Positions 1,798 to 35,016 of a DNA stretch of 42,019 nt are shown one piece after another. Every line of letters begins with the position of its first letter. Positions within the stretch are counted from its first letter, which is position 1. This DNA comes from a virus. The notes beneath the pieces were generated by a model. The model did no database searches. It had not been told where the DNA came from and was given only the letters and a program-made list of their open reading frames with translations. A program made the translations under genes and the position numbers. The stretch lies in the IMG/VR virus record IMGVR_UViG_3300034418_008782, positions 1-42,019 of that record; one strand, written 5' to 3'.

Positions 1798-4057
1798 AGG
1801 AGTGGGTGGTGGAGGTCCTGCTTCTAATGTGGCGGTTACAAACTTCCCAGTGTCACAGACAATTAACGGAACAGTCGGAGTTTCTGGCGAGGTAGAAGTT
1901 GTTAATGACTCCGGCAACCCTCTCCCTGTAACAGGAACCGTTGCTATAAGCAACTCCGAGGTAGAAATCTCTAATGACATCGGAAACCCGGTCCCGGTAA
2001 GTGGGACAGTTTCAGTTTCTAGTGATTCTCTAAACCCCGTCACGATTGCAGGGGATGTCACTATTGTTAATCCAGAAATTGAGATCAAAAATGACGTAGG
2101 GAACCCCGTTCCGGTAAGCGGAACCGTTGCCATTAGCAATGCAGAGCTGGAGATCTCTAACGATTCTGGCAACCCGGTCCCAGTAAGCGGTACTGTTGCT
2201 GTCAGTAACACTGAATTTGAGATCGTTAATGACACTGGGAATCCTATTCCAGTTAGTGGAACGGTTGCAGTTAGTAACACCGAATTTGAGATCGTTAACG
2301 ACACCGGGAATCCTATTCCAGTTAGTGGAACAGTTGCTATTAGCAATGGTTCGCTAGAGGTTTCCAATGACGCCGGCAACCCTCTTCCTGTCAGTGGACA
2401 AGTCACCGTTGCAACAGGTCCCTTAGATCCGATTTACGTTATCGCTGACCCCACTTTTCCGGTCCCCGTAACTGGGACGGTGGCTATTAGTAACCCTGAG
2501 CTAGAAATCACCAATGCTATTGGCAATCCGATCCCTGTTGTCTCCACGCAAAATAACCCAGTTATTGTTAATCAGGGACCCGCTAGTGCCGCCGGATTTG
2601 GTGAAAACCTAACTGCTGAACTAACACCGGTAGTTCAATTGGAAGCGATTTATGGTCTCGGCAACGAGATGGAAGATGAGTTCGAGCGCTTCTCCCAACT
2701 TGGAGGTGCAACAGGAACTAACGAATCTCTGTTCCAAGTCTCTTGCAGTGCCACAAACTTTAGTTATGGAGTTCTACGCTCTAGCAGATTCCTTCGCTAT
2801 AGACCAGGACAAAGTGCAACCGGTCGCTTCACTGCCGCATTTGGTGCTCCAGCTGCCAATGTTTCCCAAAGAGCTGGACTCTTCAATCAAGAAGCAGCTT
2901 GGATGGTGGGGTATAACGGGACCGATTTCGGTGTCCTTCACAGTTATGGAGCAAAGGCGGCGATTGTTCGTATCGTAGTTGTCAGCGGTCCTTCTAGCAA
3001 CACAGACCTCACAATCACATTTGCTGGTTTCCCTCTGACGCCTATCCCGTTAGTGGCTGGTGAAGACAGAGTGGAAACTGCGGCTAGGATCGCAAACTCT
3101 GGAGTGTTTGGTGCCGCTTGGAATGTGGAGCAGGTTGGAAGTACTGTGTTCTTGGTTTCTACGAACACAAACCCCCTATCTAACACCACTTTCACATACT
3201 CGCATTCAGACTCTGTCGGTTTAGCAATTTTGGATAGAGACGGTGTGTCTCCTACAGATGCGTGGACGCCTGCAGCATCCTTCAACGTGGACAAACTTGA
3301 CGGCAGCGGTCCGTCCGGTATGATCATAGACCCGACGAAGCTCAACGTGTTCCAGATTCGCTATAAGTGGCTGGGTGCTGGTGCCATCTCGTTCATGATC
3401 GAAGATTCTCTGACAGGGAACAATATTGAGTTCCACAGGATCCTTTGGTCCAACCAAAACAACGTCCCGCATGTAGCAAACCCCTCTATGAAGATCGGGT
3501 ACGTGTGCTATAACCTAGGGGGAGGAGTACAAACAGAGGTTACCGGGTCATCTATGATGCTAGCTGTTGACGGAAAGAGGGAACTGACTCACTTCCCGAA
3601 AGCAGTCGCTGTTTCTAAAACCGGACTTTCCAATGACAATGTTGATCCAGATGACATCCACCACATTGTAAGTATCCGCAACCCTCTCACAATTAGTGGC
3701 AAGATTAACACTAGAGAGCTGATCCTTCAAAATGCTTCACTTACTGCTGTCTCCAGTGACCCTACCAATTTCCTAATTTACTTGGACGCGGATCTAATCA
3801 GTGGATACCACATTTGGCAAACGCTTGCTAAGTCTAATGCTACATACTCAAACGTGGACGGAGAGATTGACGGAACTGCTTTCACACCTTTAGCCATTTC
3901 TACTGTCGTTGGTGGTGGCGTTTCTGGGGGAGGTAAAGACATTAGTCTTTTGGACTATGACATTGTCGTGCCCGCTGGCTCCACCATTAGCATTTGCGCA
4001 AGGAGCAGCACCAACATTACCGAACTATCTACTGCTATAACTTGGACTGTTGACTGA
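1772..4057 (+). CDS. Tail-fibre-like virion protein with 23-aa repeats
   Basis: About 761 aa. From roughly residue 30 to 270 it consists of imperfect units of about 23 residues of the form NDxGNPxPVSGTVAxSN followed by about seven variable residues, eight or more copies, a layout expected for an elongated beta-rich fibre shaft. After that the sequence is non-repetitive, Gly/Ser/Thr/Asn-rich and hydrophobic-alternating, ending in a beta-rich domain (TVD at the C-terminus) that could bind receptor or baseplate. The frame is open from a TTG at 1748, but ATG at 1772 or 1781 is the more likely start; neither has a strong Shine-Dalgarno. Fibre versus other surface virion protein cannot be settled from sequence. 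Confidence 0.7.
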   Translation: MPVMIYSPEGVGGGGPASNVAVTNFPVSQTINGTVGVSGEVEVVNDSGNPLPVTGTVAISNSEVEISNDIGNPVPVSGTVSVSSDSLNPVTIAGDVTIVNPEIEIKNDVGNPVPVSGTVAISNAELEISNDSGNPVPVSGTVAVSNTEFEIVNDTGNPIPVSGTVAVSNTEFEIVNDTGNPIPVSGTVAISNGSLEVSNDAGNPLPVSGQVTVATGPLDPIYVIADPTFPVPVTGTVAISNPELEITNAIGNPIPVVSTQNNPVIVNQGPASAAGFGENLTAELTPVVQLEAIYGLGNEMEDEFERFSQLGGATGTNESLFQVSCSATNFSYGVLRSSRFLRYRPGQSATGRFTAAFGAPAANVSQRAGLFNQEAAWMVGYNGTDFGVLHSYGAKAAIVRIVVVSGPSSNTDLTITFAGFPLTPIPLVAGEDRVETAARIANSGVFGAAWNVEQVGSTVFLVSTNTNPLSNTTFTYSHSDSVGLAILDRDGVSPTDAWTPAASFNVDKLDGSGPSGMIIDPTKLNVFQIRYKWLGAGAISFMIEDSLTGNNIEFHRILWSNQNNVPHVANPSMKIGYVCYNLGGGVQTEVTGSSMMLAVDGKRELTHFPKAVAVSKTGLSNDNVDPDDIHHIVSIRNPLTISGKINTRELILQNASLTAVSSDPTNFLIYLDADLISGYHIWQTLAKSNATYSNVDGEIDGTAFTPLAISTVVGGGVSGGGKDISLLDYDIVVPAGSTISICARSSTNITELSTAITWTVD
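1890..2560 (+). repeat. Tandem 69-bp coding repeats (23-aa units)
   Basis: Consecutive units translate to NDxGNPxPVSGTVAxSN plus a variable stretch. Two neighbouring units around 2200-2340 are nearly identical at nucleotide level (GGGAATCCTATTCCAGTTAG occurs twice, 66-69 bp apart), which points to recent duplication. Other units have diverged, and two are interrupted by longer spacers. Confidence 0.8.
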
Positions 4058-4058
4058 G

Positions 4059-4085
4059 TTTACTCGGGTCTTCTTAGGGTAAAAT
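4059..4085 (+). promoter_or_regulatory. TTTAC-N16 class promoter, overlapping GGGTAAAA
   Basis: TTTACT (4059-4064), 15-bp spacer, TAAAAT (4080-4085). The -10 is also part of GGGTAAAATAC (4077-4087), so it has features of two promoter classes. Predicted +1 is near 4092, just before the hairpin and riboswitch-like RNA. Confidence 0.6.
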
Positions 4086-4094
4086 ACAAATAAG

Positions 4095-4112
4095 AGGGTG
4101 GTTCTCCACCCT
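4095..4112 (+). other. 5' leader hairpin
   Basis: AGGGTGG (4095-4101), loop TTCT, CCACCCT (4106-4112): a 7-bp stem at the very 5' end of the predicted transcript. It lacks a T-tract, so it is more likely a protective or structural 5' hairpin than a terminator of the upstream fibre gene. Confidence 0.6.
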
Positions 4113-4113
4113 T

Positions 4114-4347
4114 CGTTCATCGCCTCGCAAGCGACGGAAGTAGTTGACGCGCAACGGATTCAATCGTTGATCCCATGCCCATACTCTTAATGACATGCGT
4201 ACAAGTGAACGTCCTCGCAACGAGGGTCTATGACAACTCAATCCTTAAGGATTACGAGAAAATAGAGATCATTGCAGAACTTCAGAATTCTGCCGAGGAT
4301 CAACCTTGTAGAGTGGGCACGGGACGCAAACGTCATACGAAGGAACG
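4114..4347 (+). ncRNA. Glutamine-riboswitch-like RNA with large P3 insertion
   Basis: The core matches my knowledge of the glutamine riboswitch (glnA / Downstream-peptide motifs) of cyanobacteria and cyanophages. P1 pairs CGTTC (4114-4118) with GAACG (4343-4347). P2 pairs TCGC (4120-4123) with GCGA (4131-4134). The conserved GGAAGTAG is at 4136-4143 and GAAGGAACG at 4339-4347. P3 can form from GTTGACG (4143-4149) and CGTCATAC (4331-4338) with one bulged base. About 180 nt are inserted in the P3 loop and contain further inverted repeats: CAACG/CGTTG (4152-4169), CCTCG/CGAGG (4213-4225), AATCCTTAAGGATT (4240-4253) and GCAGAA/TTCTGC (4274-4293). A small peptide gene follows, as in the Downstream-peptide class. 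Ligand and switching mechanism are inferred. Confidence 0.7.
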
Positions 4348-9482: not shown

Positions 9483-9536
9483 CAGTTGGGAAAGTGGCAC
9501 ACAGTTTTACACAAGGCCCTCAAAACAGGGTATTAT
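9483..9536 (+). promoter_or_regulatory. Operator/promoter module 2
   Basis: CAGTTGGGAAAGTG (9483-9496), GCAC, then 34 bp in total to TATTAT (9531-9536). No terminator hairpin in the interval. Predicted +1 near 9543, 21 nt before the ATG. Nearly identical to module 3. Confidence 0.7.
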
Positions 9537-9592
9537 AAAAAAGTCAAACAAATCAAACCAACTATGAACAACCAACCTATGAACCTCTTCAT
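9483..9592 (+). repeat. Duplicated promoter-plus-start segment, copy 1
   Basis: About 110 bp spanning operator, -10, leader and the first nine codons (MNNQPMNL) are repeated at 9760-9869 with only a few mismatches. Confidence 0.85.
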
Positions 9593-9746
9593 CACTCAAA
9601 CCTTCCCTCGCAACAAGGTTCAAGTCGGATTCGTCCAGACTGAAGTCGCTAACGACTACTACTACATTGCTCCCGGTCAGGAGCCCGTCGGTCCTTACGC
9701 CGATGAGGAAGATGCCTACCGTGGCTACCTCAACTCCCAAATCTGA
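9564..9746 (+). CDS. Hypothetical protein (60 aa), paralogous start
   Basis: Starts MNNQPMNLFITQ, sharing its first eight residues and its whole promoter with the next gene, then diverges. The open frame continues upstream but through the promoter, so the ATG at 9564 is preferred. Aromatic-rich middle (NDYYYIAPGQEP). The leader is A/C-rich without a Shine-Dalgarno. Confidence 0.65.
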   Translation: MNNQPMNLFITQTFPRNKVQVGFVQTEVANDYYYIAPGQEPVGPYADEEDAYRGYLNSQI

Positions 9747-9759
9747 GGACATCAGTAGC

Positions 9760-9813
9760 CAGTTGAGAAACTGGCACACAGTTTTACACAAGGCCCTCAA
9801 AACAAGGTATTAT
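9760..9813 (+). promoter_or_regulatory. Operator/promoter module 3
   Basis: CAGTTGAGAAACTG (9760-9773) is a perfect 5-bp inverted repeat with a 4-nt centre, followed by GCAC and, 34 bp after the repeat, TATTAT (9808-9813). Predicted +1 near 9820. Confidence 0.72.
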
Positions 9814-9869
9814 AAAAAAGTCAAACAAATCAAACCAACTATGAACAACCAACCTATGAACCTCTACAT
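9760..9869 (+). repeat. Duplicated promoter-plus-start segment, copy 2
   Basis: Second copy of the 9483-9592 segment. Identity stops within the ninth codon, so the duplication transferred promoter, leader and translation start onto a different coding sequence. Confidence 0.85.
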
Positions 9870-11479: not shown

Positions 11480-11506
11480 TTTACGTCTTGGTGTGTCGTG
11501 TATAAT
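11480..11506 (+). promoter_or_regulatory. TTTAC-N16 class promoter
   Basis: TTTACG (11480-11485), 15-bp spacer, TATAAT (11501-11506). Predicted +1 is 11513, exactly the ATG of the GIY-YIG gene. Confidence 0.65.
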
Positions 11507-11512
11507 AAGTGT

Positions 11513-12145
11513 ATGAATGACTACTACACCTATGCCTTTTTACGTGAAGATGGAACACCCTACTATGTTGGGAAAGGGAAAGGAAGGAGGTGTTTTGATA
11601 AGAAGAGAACCATCAACCCCCCATCAGACCCGGATCGGATCATTATACTAAAAAAGAACCTCACAGAAGAAGAGGCGTTTAGACACGAAATCTACATGAT
11701 CTATGTCTTAGGGAAAAAGAAACACGGAGGTCTCCTACACAACATCACTGACGGGGGAGAGGGGGTCTCTGGGATGGTCCATTCTGAAGAATCCAGAGAG
11801 AAGATAGGGAAGGCTTTTAGAGGAAAGAAACTGTCAGAAAAACACAAGGAGAAGTTGAGACAACGGAAAATAGGGAACACCTGGAATAGAGGTAAAAAGA
11901 TCTCCGAAGAACAGAAAGAAAAAATCAGACAAACCCTAAAAGGTGTCCCTCATTCAGAAGAAAGAAAAATGAGAAACAGTCAGTCTCATATGGGAAACAA
12001 ACAGTCTGATGAGACCAAAGAAAAGATCGGAAATGCCATGAGAGGTTCACGTTTTTGGAACAATGGAGAAATAAATGTCCGTAGTCGTGAGTGGCCCGGT
12101 GAAGGATTTGTCCTTGGAATGAAGAAGAGAAAGAAAAATGATTGA
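11513..12145 (+). CDS. GIY-YIG homing endonuclease
   Basis: 210 aa. N-terminal GIY-YIG-type nuclease (YTYAFLREDGTPYYVGKGKGRR: the two Tyr-x-Tyr/YxG strands and catalytic Arg), with RHEIYMI supplying the conserved Glu. About residues 85-185 hold NUMOD3-like repeats (HSEESREKIGKAFRGKK and similar), a DNA-binding module of freestanding homing endonucleases. The C-terminus has WNNGEINV...WPGEGF, a motif shared with two other endonucleases in this window. It is a selfish element rather than a housekeeping gene. An in-frame GTG at 11498 overlaps the promoter and is rejected. Confidence 0.9.
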   Translation: MNDYYTYAFLREDGTPYYVGKGKGRRCFDKKRTINPPSDPDRIIILKKNLTEEEAFRHEIYMIYVLGKKKHGGLLHNITDGGEGVSGMVHSEESREKIGKAFRGKKLSEKHKEKLRQRKIGNTWNRGKKISEEQKEKIRQTLKGVPHSEERKMRNSQSHMGNKQSDETKEKIGNAMRGSRFWNNGEINVRSREWPGEGFVLGMKKRKKND

Positions 12146-15959: not shown

Positions 15960-16778
15960 ATGCAATTCTTCGTCGAAAACGATCTCAACTGGACCGTCTC
16001 CAAGCGTCCTATGACTTTTGATTATGATGGTCAAAGTATCGAGATTCCCAACAAGTTTGCTGTTGTTCGGGACGATAATCAAACTCTCCTCGGAGTTGTG
16101 AGCAAAGACTACGAGCCTGTGCAAAACTCCTCACTCCTTGCTCAAGTCGAGCCTTTGGAGTCTGAAGGAATGCTCACTCGGGAAAACACTGGCTACCTCA
16201 ATGATGGAGCCAAGGTCTTCGTTCAGTCTAAGTTTGCAGAGGAGTTCGTGGTTGCTGGTGATAACACTACCGCAATGGTCTCTCTTCTCAACGGTCATGG
16301 TTCTGGTGTTGCAACACGCATCGGTCTCACTGCCGTCCGTGTTATCTGCAGCAACACGTTCGTAATGGCGATGCAAGATCTTGATGTTCGCATCACTCAC
16401 CGTCTTGGCGCTAACGAGCGAGTGCTCACCAACACTTTTGTCCGTGACTACGTCAACGAGCGGATGAAGGTCTACGCACAAAACATGGAAGCGATTGCTC
16501 GAACCGAATGCTCCAAAGGTTCCTTTGATACTTTCATCAAGACGGTCTACAAAAAGACTGACCTTAGCAAGATGAAGCAGTACAACGACCTCGAATACTT
16601 GTTCCGCAACGGTGCAGGAAACAACGGTCGGACATTTGCTGATGCTCTCAATGCAGTAACTGAGTTCAACACTCACCGCTCATCGAAGCGCGCCGCGCGC
16701 CGATTTGTCTCCAACCAATTCGGTCCTGCTGCTACAATCAGCAACCGCGCATTCCAAGTTGCTCTTGCGGCTGTGTGA
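15960..16778 (+). CDS. DUF932 phage/plasmid-like protein
   Basis: 272 aa, matching the size of DUF932 (TIGR03299) proteins. Typical blocks are KFAVVRDDNQTLLGVVSKDY near the N-terminus, then TRIGLTAVRVICSNTF and a basic helical tail. The family is widespread in phages and plasmids; biochemical role is unknown, with a link to DNA recombination or replication often suggested. Own promoter, no neighbour overlap, and a strong promoter again after it, so it is monocistronic. Confidence 0.8.
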   Translation: MQFFVENDLNWTVSKRPMTFDYDGQSIEIPNKFAVVRDDNQTLLGVVSKDYEPVQNSSLLAQVEPLESEGMLTRENTGYLNDGAKVFVQSKFAEEFVVAGDNTTAMVSLLNGHGSGVATRIGLTAVRVICSNTFVMAMQDLDVRITHRLGANERVLTNTFVRDYVNERMKVYAQNMEAIARTECSKGSFDTFIKTVYKKTDLSKMKQYNDLEYLFRNGAGNNGRTFADALNAVTEFNTHRSSKRAARRFVSNQFGPAATISNRAFQVALAAV

Positions 16779-31361: not shown

Positions 31362-32834
31362 ATGAAGTTGAATGAAATTGGTTACCCAGTTTTGTCAGAC
31401 GACATCCATTCTAAAGTGTTTGGAGATTTGCATCGTGATGCGCCTGCGCAACGCAAAGTAGATCGTTCTCGTCGTCTCCTTGATCGAGCAAACGTTCCCA
31501 ACCCCATTGACTATCCTGATAACCTTTACACTGGTGATCTCCCTTTACCTAAACTAAAAGGAAATAACATCATTGATCACTTCGAAAAAATCGCTAAAGA
31601 GCAACTCGGCGATTATCCCAAGCTGGCCGAAGAGTTCTCTAAGTGCAAAGTTATTTCACCACCACCTGTTGATGTGCTGAAGTTTGAAGCAGGATGGACT
31701 CGCTACGAACCTGCAAAGAATGGGTGGAAAGTTACTAATGAAGCTCCTAAGGAACGAGCTCTAACATTTGACACTGAGACTTTTGTTGAAGGTGGCAACT
31801 ATCCTATTATCGGCACTGCTCTATCATCCAAAGCTTATTATCTGTGGCTTGCTAAAGAACTTCTTGATCCAACAATTCCTCAAGACGAGTGGGATCAATA
31901 CAACTTGGTTCCACTAACTGAGAATGCTTTTGTTGTTGGGCATAACATCAGTTTTGATCGTGTGCGCGTTTCAAATGCTTATACATTGAAAACAAGTAAA
32001 CCAGAGAACTTTTACTTTGACACACTGAGTAGTCATGTAGCAGTTGCTGGTTTGGCAAGTGGTCAGCGTTGGTTGTACACCTTGACCAACAAAAACCCAG
32101 AGCTTCTTACTCCAGAAGAACAACGTAAACTTCGCTATCGTCCTCGTTGGGTTGATGAAGGTGCTACAAACTCTCTTGTTGCGGCTTATAACTTCCATGT
32201 GTATGAGTCTCGCAAATTCTTTGACGAGAATGCTAAGCCTTTGGATGAAGGTGATAAGTTGGTTCGTCGCATCTTTGTGGATGCCAAGTCACTGCTTGAA
32301 ATTAACGTGATGTTGGAAGATGCAGTTGTTTATGCATTGAAGGATGCTTTCTACACAACTGAGTTGTTCCAAGCAATTTGGCCTCGTTATCGCGAGTGCT
32401 CACCAACTATGGTGCACCTTTCTGGTCATTACTTCCTCAATGGTTCTCGAGTTCCTGTTGCTGATAATTGGTACAAGTGGATCAAGCAAGTTGACAAAGC
32501 ATATTACGATGCACTAGAAGAAGTGCAAGAAATTGCTAAAGATCTCGCCGATGATCTCTACTTGCATTGGAAAGGCATTTACGACAAAGATCGTGATGAC
32601 GCAGCTAAGTGGGTGAATGAAGATCCGTGGCGTAAGCAAATGGATTGGGTTGTCAAAACAGAAAAAGGTCGTTATGCTCACTGCCCAAATTGGTATCGCC
32701 CCTTCAAAAAGGATCCCGATCATCGTGTAACCACCAAATCTAAATTGCTCCACTTTCTTTTGAGGTTGACGTGGAATGGACAACCTATTCAGTGGGTTGA
32801 TGGAATGGGGTGGTGTTATGATGATGGGACCTGA
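31362..32834 (+). CDS. Family-A DNA polymerase, N-terminal part (3'-5' exonuclease)
   Basis: 490 aa. Replicative polymerase, proofreading half. Exo I LTFDTETFV (Asp137, Glu139), Exo II VVGHNISFDR (Asp199), Exo III YALKDAFYT (Tyr324, Asp328). The upstream phrase GWTRYE...GWKV and the inserted spacer domain resemble mitochondrial pol gamma and its phage relatives rather than E. coli Pol I or T7. The frame stops (TGA) right after WCYDDGT, and the palm/finger half resumes past an HNH gene at about 33634. So this is either the 5' part of a gene interrupted by an intron or one subunit of a split polymerase. Confidence 0.88.
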   Translation: MKLNEIGYPVLSDDIHSKVFGDLHRDAPAQRKVDRSRRLLDRANVPNPIDYPDNLYTGDLPLPKLKGNNIIDHFEKIAKEQLGDYPKLAEEFSKCKVISPPPVDVLKFEAGWTRYEPAKNGWKVTNEAPKERALTFDTETFVEGGNYPIIGTALSSKAYYLWLAKELLDPTIPQDEWDQYNLVPLTENAFVVGHNISFDRVRVSNAYTLKTSKPENFYFDTLSSHVAVAGLASGQRWLYTLTNKNPELLTPEEQRKLRYRPRWVDEGATNSLVAAYNFHVYESRKFFDENAKPLDEGDKLVRRIFVDAKSLLEINVMLEDAVVYALKDAFYTTELFQAIWPRYRECSPTMVHLSGHYFLNGSRVPVADNWYKWIKQVDKAYYDALEEVQEIAKDLADDLYLHWKGIYDKDRDDAAKWVNEDPWRKQMDWVVKTEKGRYAHCPNWYRPFKKDPDHRVTTKSKLLHFLLRLTWNGQPIQWVDGMGWCYDDGT

Positions 32835-32842
32835 CTCCCAGG

Positions 32843-32861
32843 TGGAACAATGTTCCAGTCA
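32843..32861 (+). repeat. 19-bp direct repeat flanking the HNH gene, left copy
   Basis: TGGAACAATGTTCCAGTCA, identical to 33591-33609. Each copy contains the palindrome TGGAACA-A-TGTTCCA. The left copy starts 9 nt after the end of the polymerase exonuclease frame. Confidence 0.85.
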
Positions 32862-32864
32862 GAG

Positions 32865-32891
32865 TTTACTGTGTCCAGTAAGAGGTAAAAT
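32865..32891 (+). promoter_or_regulatory. TTTAC-N16 class promoter
   Basis: TTTACT (32865-32870), 15-bp spacer, TAAAAT (32886-32891). Predicted +1 is 32898, the A of the HNH start codon. Confidence 0.65.
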
Positions 32892-32897
32892 AAACCT

Positions 32898-33584
32898 ATG
32901 GACAAAACTCACAAACATCACATCATCCCCCGTAGTCGTGGAGGGTCTGATGAACCAAACAATCTTACTGACATCAACTTTATCGAACACGCCAAACTAC
33001 ACGCCATAGACTATCTAAACGGCGGCCCTAGATTCGACTTCCGACATGAAGGTTGGAAGTGGTTGGACGAGGATCTACGCCAAAAGGTCTTGAACAAGGT
33101 AAGGCAAGAATCTTACGGAAACAGGGGTCGTTGGGGTGGTCGTGACAATGGAGAACCACACCCTTGTGAAGGTCTGAAATGGTGGAATAATGGAGTTGAA
33201 TCGCAGTTATTTAGAGACTCTCCAGGTGATGATTGGGTTGAAGGACGACTATGGGACGATGATTGGACGTCAGACTATGACCGAAGTCATAACAAAAACC
33301 GAAAAATGTGGAACAACGGCACAGAAACCCGTCTCAGTTTTGAATCCCCTGGGCCGGACTGGAAGTTAGGAGATCTGGAAGAAAGAAACAAAAAGAAAGG
33401 ACGGCCAGGGATCCCAAAACAAGAAGAGTGGAGACGCCAACGTTCTGAAGATAGTAAAGGAGAAAAGAACCCATGCTTTGGCAAACAGTGGTGGACGAAT
33501 GGTGATGAGAATGTTTATCTCCGTCAAGATGAAGTCCCTCCCGAAGACTATTATCGCGGTCGCACACTAAAACGTAACCAATAA
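32898..33584 (+). CDS. HNH homing endonuclease within the polymerase locus
   Basis: 228 aa. The HNH motif is at the very N-terminus: KHHIIPRSRGG (about 5-15), EPNNLTDI, then FIEHAKLHAIDYL. The rest carries three copies of a W(W/N)NG...PG..W..GR module (KWWNNGVESQLFRDSPGDDW, KMWNNGTETRLSFESPGPDW, QWWTNGDENVYLRQDEVPPE), also found once in each GIY-YIG enzyme of this window. Own promoter, ATG at +1. It separates the exonuclease and polymerase halves and is flanked by a 19-bp repeat, so it is a mobile insertion. Confidence 0.9.
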   Translation: MDKTHKHHIIPRSRGGSDEPNNLTDINFIEHAKLHAIDYLNGGPRFDFRHEGWKWLDEDLRQKVLNKVRQESYGNRGRWGGRDNGEPHPCEGLKWWNNGVESQLFRDSPGDDWVEGRLWDDDWTSDYDRSHNKNRKMWNNGTETRLSFESPGPDWKLGDLEERNKKKGRPGIPKQEEWRRQRSEDSKGEKNPCFGKQWWTNGDENVYLRQDEVPPEDYYRGRTLKRNQ

Positions 33585-33590
33585 ATCGAC

Positions 33591-33609
33591 TGGAACAATG
33601 TTCCAGTCA
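33591..33609 (+). repeat. 19-bp direct repeat flanking the HNH gene, right copy
   Basis: TGGAACAATGTTCCAGTCA. With its flanking bases this copy is a perfect inverted repeat with 9-bp arms around AAT (33588-33608). The ATG at 33598 that opens the polymerase C-terminal frame lies inside it. Confidence 0.85.
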
Positions 33610-35016
33610 AACACACACTCTCTCTCAACCAAAATGGCACTCGTAAAAATCCCCCATCCCAAAGGCACCACTGACAATGTCGGAGGACTCATCACAAAAG
33701 AGTTTGTGAAGGACATGGAGGTCGGACGACTTGATAGTGAAAACCCCACAGCGAAAAGAGTCCTTGAAGTGGCTAACCTCGTTTCGTACTGGACGGGTGT
33801 TCGTAGCCGTGTTCATGAACGAATCATTGCAAAGGTAGAAAATCCCTACGGTGAAGATGCTTTGTTGATGGCACCTAACATCCTTGTCCATGGCACTGTG
33901 ACCCGTCGAACAGTCGAAAACCTTTTGGTTGTGATGTGTTCTACAAAAAATTGGCGTATCGGTACTGAACTTAAGTCTCGCTTCAAAGCACCTGATGGTT
34001 GGAAGATTGTGATGGCTGACTTCGATGCTCAAGAAATGGGTATTGCTTCTATCTACGCTGATATGTGGGAAGGCGGTTATGTTGGTGCTTCGCCTTTATC
34101 ATACACAGTGTTAGTCGGATCTAAAGAAAATGGATCTGATTCTCACACAGCTCTTGCCCGACAAATCTTCAAAAAAGAATATGAAGGCATTGAGTGGAAG
34201 CATGGCAAAATGCTGAAAGATGGCGAGCCAATTGATAAGGAAACAAAGTCTCTACTTGGAACTTGCCGAGATGTTACAAAAGGTGTGAACTTCGCTGTTC
34301 TGTATGGTGCTGGAATCAAAACTACTGCTAACACCATTCAGAAAGCATTTCCAGAAAGATCAACTGCTGAGTTGAAAAAGTTTGCACAAAATGCATTGGC
34401 TTCTAAGAAAGGGATCAAAAACCCTGAAGGTTATTTTGAAGGTGGATCCGACAGTGGGGCATTCAACATTATGGTAAAAGTTGGAATGAAGAGCAAAGTG
34501 CCTACACTCCCAGCTCTAGGCACTCGCATTTCCAATGCACTTCGTCCAGCGGTTGTCGGTGATGACTTTGCCACAGGTCGAATGAACTTTTGCATTCAGT
34601 CTGCCGGCGCTGAAATGCTAGCAATCATCCTCACAGCTTCACAATGGCTTGCTGATGAGTTCAAAATTCCAGCACAGTTTGCTGTGAGCATTCACGATGA
34701 GTTGAGTTGGTTCGTTCCAGAAAAATATGCTAAGTTGTTTGCTGGTGTGTTCCAAATCGCTCACCTTTACTCTTGGGCAAGGTTCCAAGCAGGATGCGGA
34801 ATCAATGATCTTCCTCTCGCCAGAGCATTCTTCTCTGCTGTGGCCATCGATGATCGCATTCGCAAATCACCTTACGAAGATACAACGACACCATCTAACC
34901 CTCAGGGTAAGACTGAAAAAGCCGGAGAAGAATTCACTATCACTGACTTATTCGAGGATGGCACATTGAAAAAACTACAAACCCGACTTAACCTCATTCA
35001 ACAGGGTGTCCTCTAA
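33598..35016 (+). CDS. Family-A DNA polymerase, C-terminal part (polymerase domain)
   Basis: 472 aa from the first ATG; residues from MALVKIPHPKG (ATG at 33634) look like genuine pol gamma-type sequence, whereas the first twelve look like insert-derived leader. Motif A VMADFDAQEMG (Asp141, Glu146), motif B RDVTKGVNFAVLYGAG (Arg224, Lys228, Phe232, Tyr236), motif C SIHDE (Asp367, Glu368): all catalytic residues are intact. Joined to the N-terminal part it gives a complete pol gamma-like enzyme of about 950 aa. Expression either needs RNA splicing or yields a separate subunit. Confidence 0.88.
   Translation: MFQSNTHSLSTKMALVKIPHPKGTTDNVGGLITKEFVKDMEVGRLDSENPTAKRVLEVANLVSYWTGVRSRVHERIIAKVENPYGEDALLMAPNILVHGTVTRRTVENLLVVMCSTKNWRIGTELKSRFKAPDGWKIVMADFDAQEMGIASIYADMWEGGYVGASPLSYTVLVGSKENGSDSHTALARQIFKKEYEGIEWKHGKMLKDGEPIDKETKSLLGTCRDVTKGVNFAVLYGAGIKTTANTIQKAFPERSTAELKKFAQNALASKKGIKNPEGYFEGGSDSGAFNIMVKVGMKSKVPTLPALGTRISNALRPAVVGDDFATGRMNFCIQSAGAEMLAIILTASQWLADEFKIPAQFAVSIHDELSWFVPEKYAKLFAGVFQIAHLYSWARFQAGCGINDLPLARAFFSAVAIDDRIRKSPYEDTTTPSNPQGKTEKAGEEFTITDLFEDGTLKKLQTRLNLIQQGVL

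Follow-up and report, generated by a model that had tools for sequence, protein, structure and literature searches.

A DNA polymerase gamma-type gene in a viral metagenomic record, probably split into two cistrons by an HNH endonuclease gene

The nrdA gene of Aeromonas phage Aeh1 is split by the HNH endonuclease gene mobE, and the split enzyme nevertheless assembles and is active (PMC2988022). Similarly, the two halves encoded by the split gene 43 of Aeromonas phage 25 co-purify and show polymerase activity (PMC2988022). Aeh1 nrdA/mobE and the split gene 43 of Aeromonas phages are the closest precedents for the locus described here, a DNA polymerase gamma-type gene (polG) interrupted by an HNH gene in a cyanophage-like virus, record IMGVR_UViG_3300034418_008782. 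The data consist of this entire record of 42,019 bases, hereafter the window, which is a single metagenomic record. The analysis indicates that polG has probably been split into two cistrons by the HNH gene, whose flanking halves would then work together.

An earlier note on this sequence had placed the end of an exonuclease half at WCYDDGT, followed by a stop codon at 32834, and the resumption of a polymerase half with all catalytic motifs at ALVKIPHPKG (33637), with an HNH gene between the halves of a pol gamma-like gene. These coordinates were reproduced exactly, and the assignment agrees with the domain matches and with the whole orthologues of related viruses. The 5' half matches the Pfam domain DNApol_Exo (PF18136, E 1e-57) and the 3' half matches DNA_pol_A (PF00476, E 4e-10), and the two match consecutive parts of a single PHROG family, phrog_22619, at profile positions 6-455 and 499-931 of 954. 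The exonuclease motifs DTE, GHNISFDR and YALKDAFYT are conserved in the 5' half, the polymerase motifs A, B and C are all present in the 3' half, and both halves are fully open. A profile built from the relatives and both halves matches yeast Pol gamma with an E-value of 5e-145. On these profile matches, the interrupted gene is of the DNA polymerase gamma (family A) type.

The two halves retain 180 of the 193 residues that are invariant in 69 relatives, and the differences in the alignment are mostly conservative. The 13 departures exceed the leave-one-out count of any single relative (at most 5), but the window also occupies the most basal position in its clade. In the tree, the branch leading to the window is not lengthened in either half (0.60 for the N-terminal half and 0.37 for the C-terminal half), and its root-to-tip distance is the shortest among those compared in both halves, which argues against decay. 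Judged by these branch lengths, neither half is evolving at an accelerated rate.

The site is uninterrupted in Synechococcus phage S-CBWM1, whose orthologue is whole (953 amino acids) and has the same neighbouring genes, in the S-TIM5 group, in A-HIS1, and in about 80 IMG/VR viral contigs with 55-58% identity in the polymerase half. A further 15 loci, retrieved by means of the exonuclease half and for the most part more distant relatives of the S-TIM5 type, are also open through the site. This comparison with uninterrupted relatives, which the earlier note had proposed, thus covers about 95 loci from the alignment scans (80 + 15), all of them uninterrupted, and single-protein scans with either half found no other virus with the same insertion. 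In the tree, the window splits off first within its clade, and the uninterrupted S-TIM5 group falls outside this clade. Because all other branches are uninterrupted, the insertion is taken to be derived.

When T490 of the 5' half is joined to the methionine at 33634 followed by ALVKIPHPKG, the product has exactly the length of the relatives from its own clade in the alignment with 69 sequences, as was anticipated in the proposal that such a join would restore one polypeptide. The junction reads GWCYDDGT-MALVKIPHPKG in the window and GWCYYDGT-GGLVKVPHPKG in the relative L091. The length-exact join indicates that the insert comprises 802 nucleotides (nt), from 32832 to 33633 within one codon on either side, and that no coding sequence was lost. 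Since 802 leaves a remainder of 1 when divided by 3, the halves lie in different frames. The 5' half ends at the first inserted codon.

The break lies within a stretch that is more variable than 93.5% of 8-residue windows, which places it among the most variable 6.5%. In the AlphaFold2 model of L091 (overall predicted local distance difference test score, pLDDT, of 71), the site corresponds to the turn of a beta-hairpin with strands at 491-495 and 501-503, and at the same position about 33 additional residues are present in yeast Pol gamma and about 30 in A-HIS1. The variability and the predicted fold support a structurally permissive break site. Introns and inteins, in contrast, are reported to prefer conserved sites (PMC2814812), which counts against an intron at this position.

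The open reading frame (ORF) of the 3' half as called spans 33598-35016. The ATG at 33634, however, lies exactly where homology resumes, whereas the alternative ATG at 33598 falls inside the hairpin that precedes the leader (Table 1), and the ATG at 33634 is the probable start of the 3' half. The 25 nt ahead of it contain no G, as is the case for 0.28% of such 25-mers in the window, and the mean unpaired probability at this ATG is 0.77, compared with 0.42 ± 0.10 at random ATGs. The leader resembles several other gene starts in the window that lack a Shine-Dalgarno (SD) sequence and are G-poor and open, and the start codon and leader, from their position and composition, look adapted. Such SD-less starts in the window, for example at 15960, 23020 and 35229, with their G-poor and unstructured leaders, may reflect a second way of initiating translation in this phage.

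Table 1. Coordinates of the features of the interrupted polG locus in the window.
Feature	Coordinates	Strand	Basis or remark
polG 5' half: 3'-5' exonuclease domain, then spacer/thumb as far as the first beta-hairpin strand, ending ...GWCYDDGT-stop	31362..32834	+	490 amino acids; PF18136
Inserted segment, about 802 nt: 687-nt ORF with 66 nt upstream and 49 nt downstream	32832..33633	+	join of exact length in the alignment with 69 uninterrupted relatives
Left copy of the 19-nt palindromic repeat TGGAACAATGTTCCAGTCA	32843..32861		hairpin 8 nt past the stop of the 5' half
HNH endonuclease ORF, 228 amino acids: N-terminal HNH domain (HKHHIIPRSRGGSDEPNN...H), then three WWNNG...GR repeats; SD-like GAGGT upstream	32898..33584	+	PF01844, phrog_655, phrog_10820
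9-bp perfect hairpin GACTGGAAC-AAT-GTTCCAGTC enclosing the right repeat copy (33591-33609)	33588..33608		begins 4 nt past the HNH stop; z -5.6
G-free unstructured leader (AAACACACACTCTCTCTCAACCAAA) ahead of ATG 33634	33609..33633	+	base composition, unpaired probability
polG 3' half: remaining thumb, palm and fingers; motifs A (ADFDAQE), B (RDVTKGVNFAVLYG) and C (SIHDE)	33634..35016	+	PF00476, alignments

The protein encoded within the insert matches the Pfam family PF01844 (E 1e-4), the homing endonuclease family phrog_655 (E 6e-7) and the HNH endonuclease family phrog_10820. Its three WWNNG...GR repeats are common to many phage endonucleases of the GIY-YIG and HNH types and would bind DNA, and the protein would be expected to cleave site-specifically, as in homing. 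The closest relatives of its catalytic domain (about 54% identity) are encoded by freestanding genes, two of which overlap the stop codon of polG (5284-5838 in L131 and 3992-4552 in L150), and a third, in L185, overlaps the end of a gene other than polG. The copies in L131 and L150 indicate that members of this HNH lineage also occur near polG, without an intron, within the same group of phages, which suggests that the lineage repeatedly settles at polG. The window carries at 11498-12145 an ORF with NUMOD3 motifs (PF07460), which is probably a second homing-endonuclease gene of this phage, and in L064 a group I intron match (4020-4209, 62 bits) is adjacent to tRNA genes and to a gene that contains the WWNNG repeat of the HNH protein.

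From these results, the following course of events is proposed. A freestanding HNH homing-endonuclease gene, together with about 115 nt of flanking non-coding DNA, would have invaded the beta-hairpin turn of polG, and polG would thereby have become two cistrons, of which the first ends at the first inserted codon. The 3' half would be translated separately from ATG 33634 behind its G-free, open leader, and the exonuclease/N-terminal polypeptide and the palm/fingers polypeptide would associate non-covalently into one working polymerase, by analogy with the split enzymes mentioned above. Of the two readings in the earlier note, the permanent split into two subunits is the better supported, by the start at the boundary, the permissive site, the constraint on both halves and the freestanding HNH relatives; separate translation of the second half is a prediction.

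Several points weigh against this split. A clean and length-exact insertion is equally expected from an intron, no SD sequence precedes the 3' half, and the match of the inserted gene to the Pfam HNH family is weak. Both the cleavage activity of the HNH protein and the split as a whole are predicted from sequence. The palindromes that bracket the HNH ORF are its least explained part.

The main alternative is that the insert is a self-splicing intron of about 802 nt, group I-like or of a new kind, which carries the HNH ORF and whose splicing restores one polypeptide. In addition to the clean insertion, HNH ORFs are known in DNA polymerase introns, as in SPO1 gene 31, the polG of phage Mic1 contains a group I intron, reported as 298 bp long (PMC7156551), and hairpins lie near both ends of the present insert. 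An intron of roughly 800 nt had been put forward in the earlier note, with group I and II covariance models as a means of checking it. Rfam was therefore searched with relaxed filters, both with the region and with the insert alone. No group I (RF00028) or group II model matched either of them up to an E-value of 10, and the few matches obtained were chance ones to snoRNA and miRNA models. The same search did detect the positive controls. In Mic1 (L005, MN013189), the gap between the polG ORFs at 5363-5635 matches RF00028 with 45.5 bits, below the gathering score of 50, and an E-value of 5e-10, and the SPO1 polymerase intron with its HNH ORF is found with an E-value of 5e-4. The deposited second polG ORF of Mic1 begins well downstream of where homology resumes.

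The composition of the insert also argues against an intron. The non-coding part amounts to only 115 nt (66 + 49), which could hold a group I core only if most of the core lay within the ORF. None of the length-preserving joins (ACC/ATG, ACCT/TG and ACCTG/G, with the junction at the slash) combines a 5' exon ending in U with a G as the last base of the intron, a group I rule that a join shorter by one residue (ACCT/CA) would satisfy. An ATG with an open, G-free leader exactly at the boundary likewise speaks against splicing. An intron is therefore considered unlikely, and the split into two cistrons is clearly favoured over it. A split intein was also considered and rejected, because the 5' ORF stops at the homology boundary with nothing added and the 3' half carries no more than 12 additional residues.

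The palindromic element that brackets the HNH ORF is an exact 19-nt direct repeat, with only two copies in the window, each a few bases past a stop codon (that of the 5' half and that of the HNH gene). In 300 first-order Markov resamplings of the region, no exact repeat longer than 15 nt occurred. The hairpin of the right copy is the only perfect hairpin with at least 9 bp and a loop of 3-6 nt in the window, while the RNA stability of the 5' hairpin cluster shows no excess over shuffled sequences (z about -0.5 to -0.9). Since both copies are palindromes, they could pair across the insert into a stem of about 17 bp. Possible roles of the repeats are the protection or processing of RNA 3' ends, the isolation of the downstream leader, or none beyond being a trace of the insertion event. 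Three other explanations were rejected. Against a spreading element, the 16-mer of the repeat occurs once each in 45 viral contigs, near the chance level, and none of them encodes polG or this HNH protein. Recombination between the repeats could excise the segment, but the TGA would stay in frame and the gene would not be restored. As a forward intrinsic terminator, the right hairpin lacks a T tract on the + strand, and the terminator scan lists it for the - strand only. It is very unlikely that the insert is a new kind of expression-neutral RNA element, in which about 115 non-coding nt and the paired 18-19-nt palindromes give a single polymerase chain, either as an unrecognised small self-splicing intron or through very long ribosomal bypassing.

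Alternatively, the polymerase may have been inactivated, the insertion being a recent lesion, deleterious or tolerated, with another polymerase replicating the phage; the 42-kb record leaves room for a second polymerase elsewhere. However, both halves are open, carry all catalytic motifs and show no acceleration of rate, the 3' half has a start codon and a leader that look adapted, and polG is present and intact in all relatives, so that inactivation is highly improbable. Programmed ribosomal bypassing across the insert, similar to that of T4 gene 60, could be aided by the stem of the paired palindromes closing the loop and by matching codons, namely an in-frame ACC directly before the stop and another shortly before ATG 33634 and GCA. 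Chance alone produces such matching codons fairly often, a separate start is the simpler solution, and bypassing over some 800 nt, with an entire gene in between, is not known to have a precedent; bypassing is thus regarded as barely credible. An assembly artefact or chimera at the 19-nt repeat, conceivable for a single metagenomic record to which no second record with the insert was found, is equally far-fetched, because a repeat of 19 nt offers little length for a misjoin, the halves share one polymerase lineage and evolve at consistent rates, the join is codon-exact, and synteny with S-CBWM1 continues through the interrupted locus.

The polG region as a whole is related to that of S-CBWM1: gyrA lies upstream of it, and small genes follow downstream, in a similar order. 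Elsewhere in the window, positions 9495-9850 contain a long direct duplication that is offset by 277 bases and includes long exact stretches.

If the proposed split is correct, a polymerase of the type that replicates mitochondrial DNA would work as two non-covalent chains after the insertion of a selfish gene. A natural split site would then be defined for this enzyme family, in the very turn where mitochondrial polymerases carry an insertion, and the G-free open leader behind a hairpin would offer a case for studying how translation of a second half restarts.

Compared with the known systems, the locus is most similar to Aeh1 nrdA/mobE, in which a freestanding HNH gene also divides an essential replication gene into two coding regions, relatives have intact orthologues, and an RNA hairpin lies near the start of the endonuclease gene (PMC2988022). 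The two differ in the gene concerned (nrdA there, polG here), in the HNH protein and in the identical palindromic repeats that bracket the ORF here; assembly and activity have been demonstrated for Aeh1 and are predicted here. The split gene 43 of Aeromonas phages likewise yields a replicative phage polymerase as two polypeptides, with an endonuclease gene at the split in phage 25 (PMC2988022), but it combines a B-family polymerase with a seg-like endonuclease instead of a family A polymerase of the pol gamma type with an HNH protein.

Mic1 shares a cyanophage pol gamma gene in two ORFs. Its interruption, however, is an ORF-less group I intron (RF00028) in the conserved motif A, whereas no ribozyme signal is found in the present insert, which contains an HNH ORF and interrupts a variable turn. 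The intron of SPO1 gene 31 also places a homing-endonuclease ORF (31.2) inside a phage DNA polymerase gene, although it is an annotated intron with a detectable group I core and more non-coding sequence. In the OM43 phages MEP401 and MEP402, a family A polymerase is encoded in two ORFs with a small ORF between them (PMC10580990); that inserted ORF has no known homology. No example of a pol gamma gene with an HNH gene between its halves was found in the open-licence literature searched. A split by a freestanding endonuclease gene is thus a rare but known arrangement, which is new for the pol gamma family within that literature.

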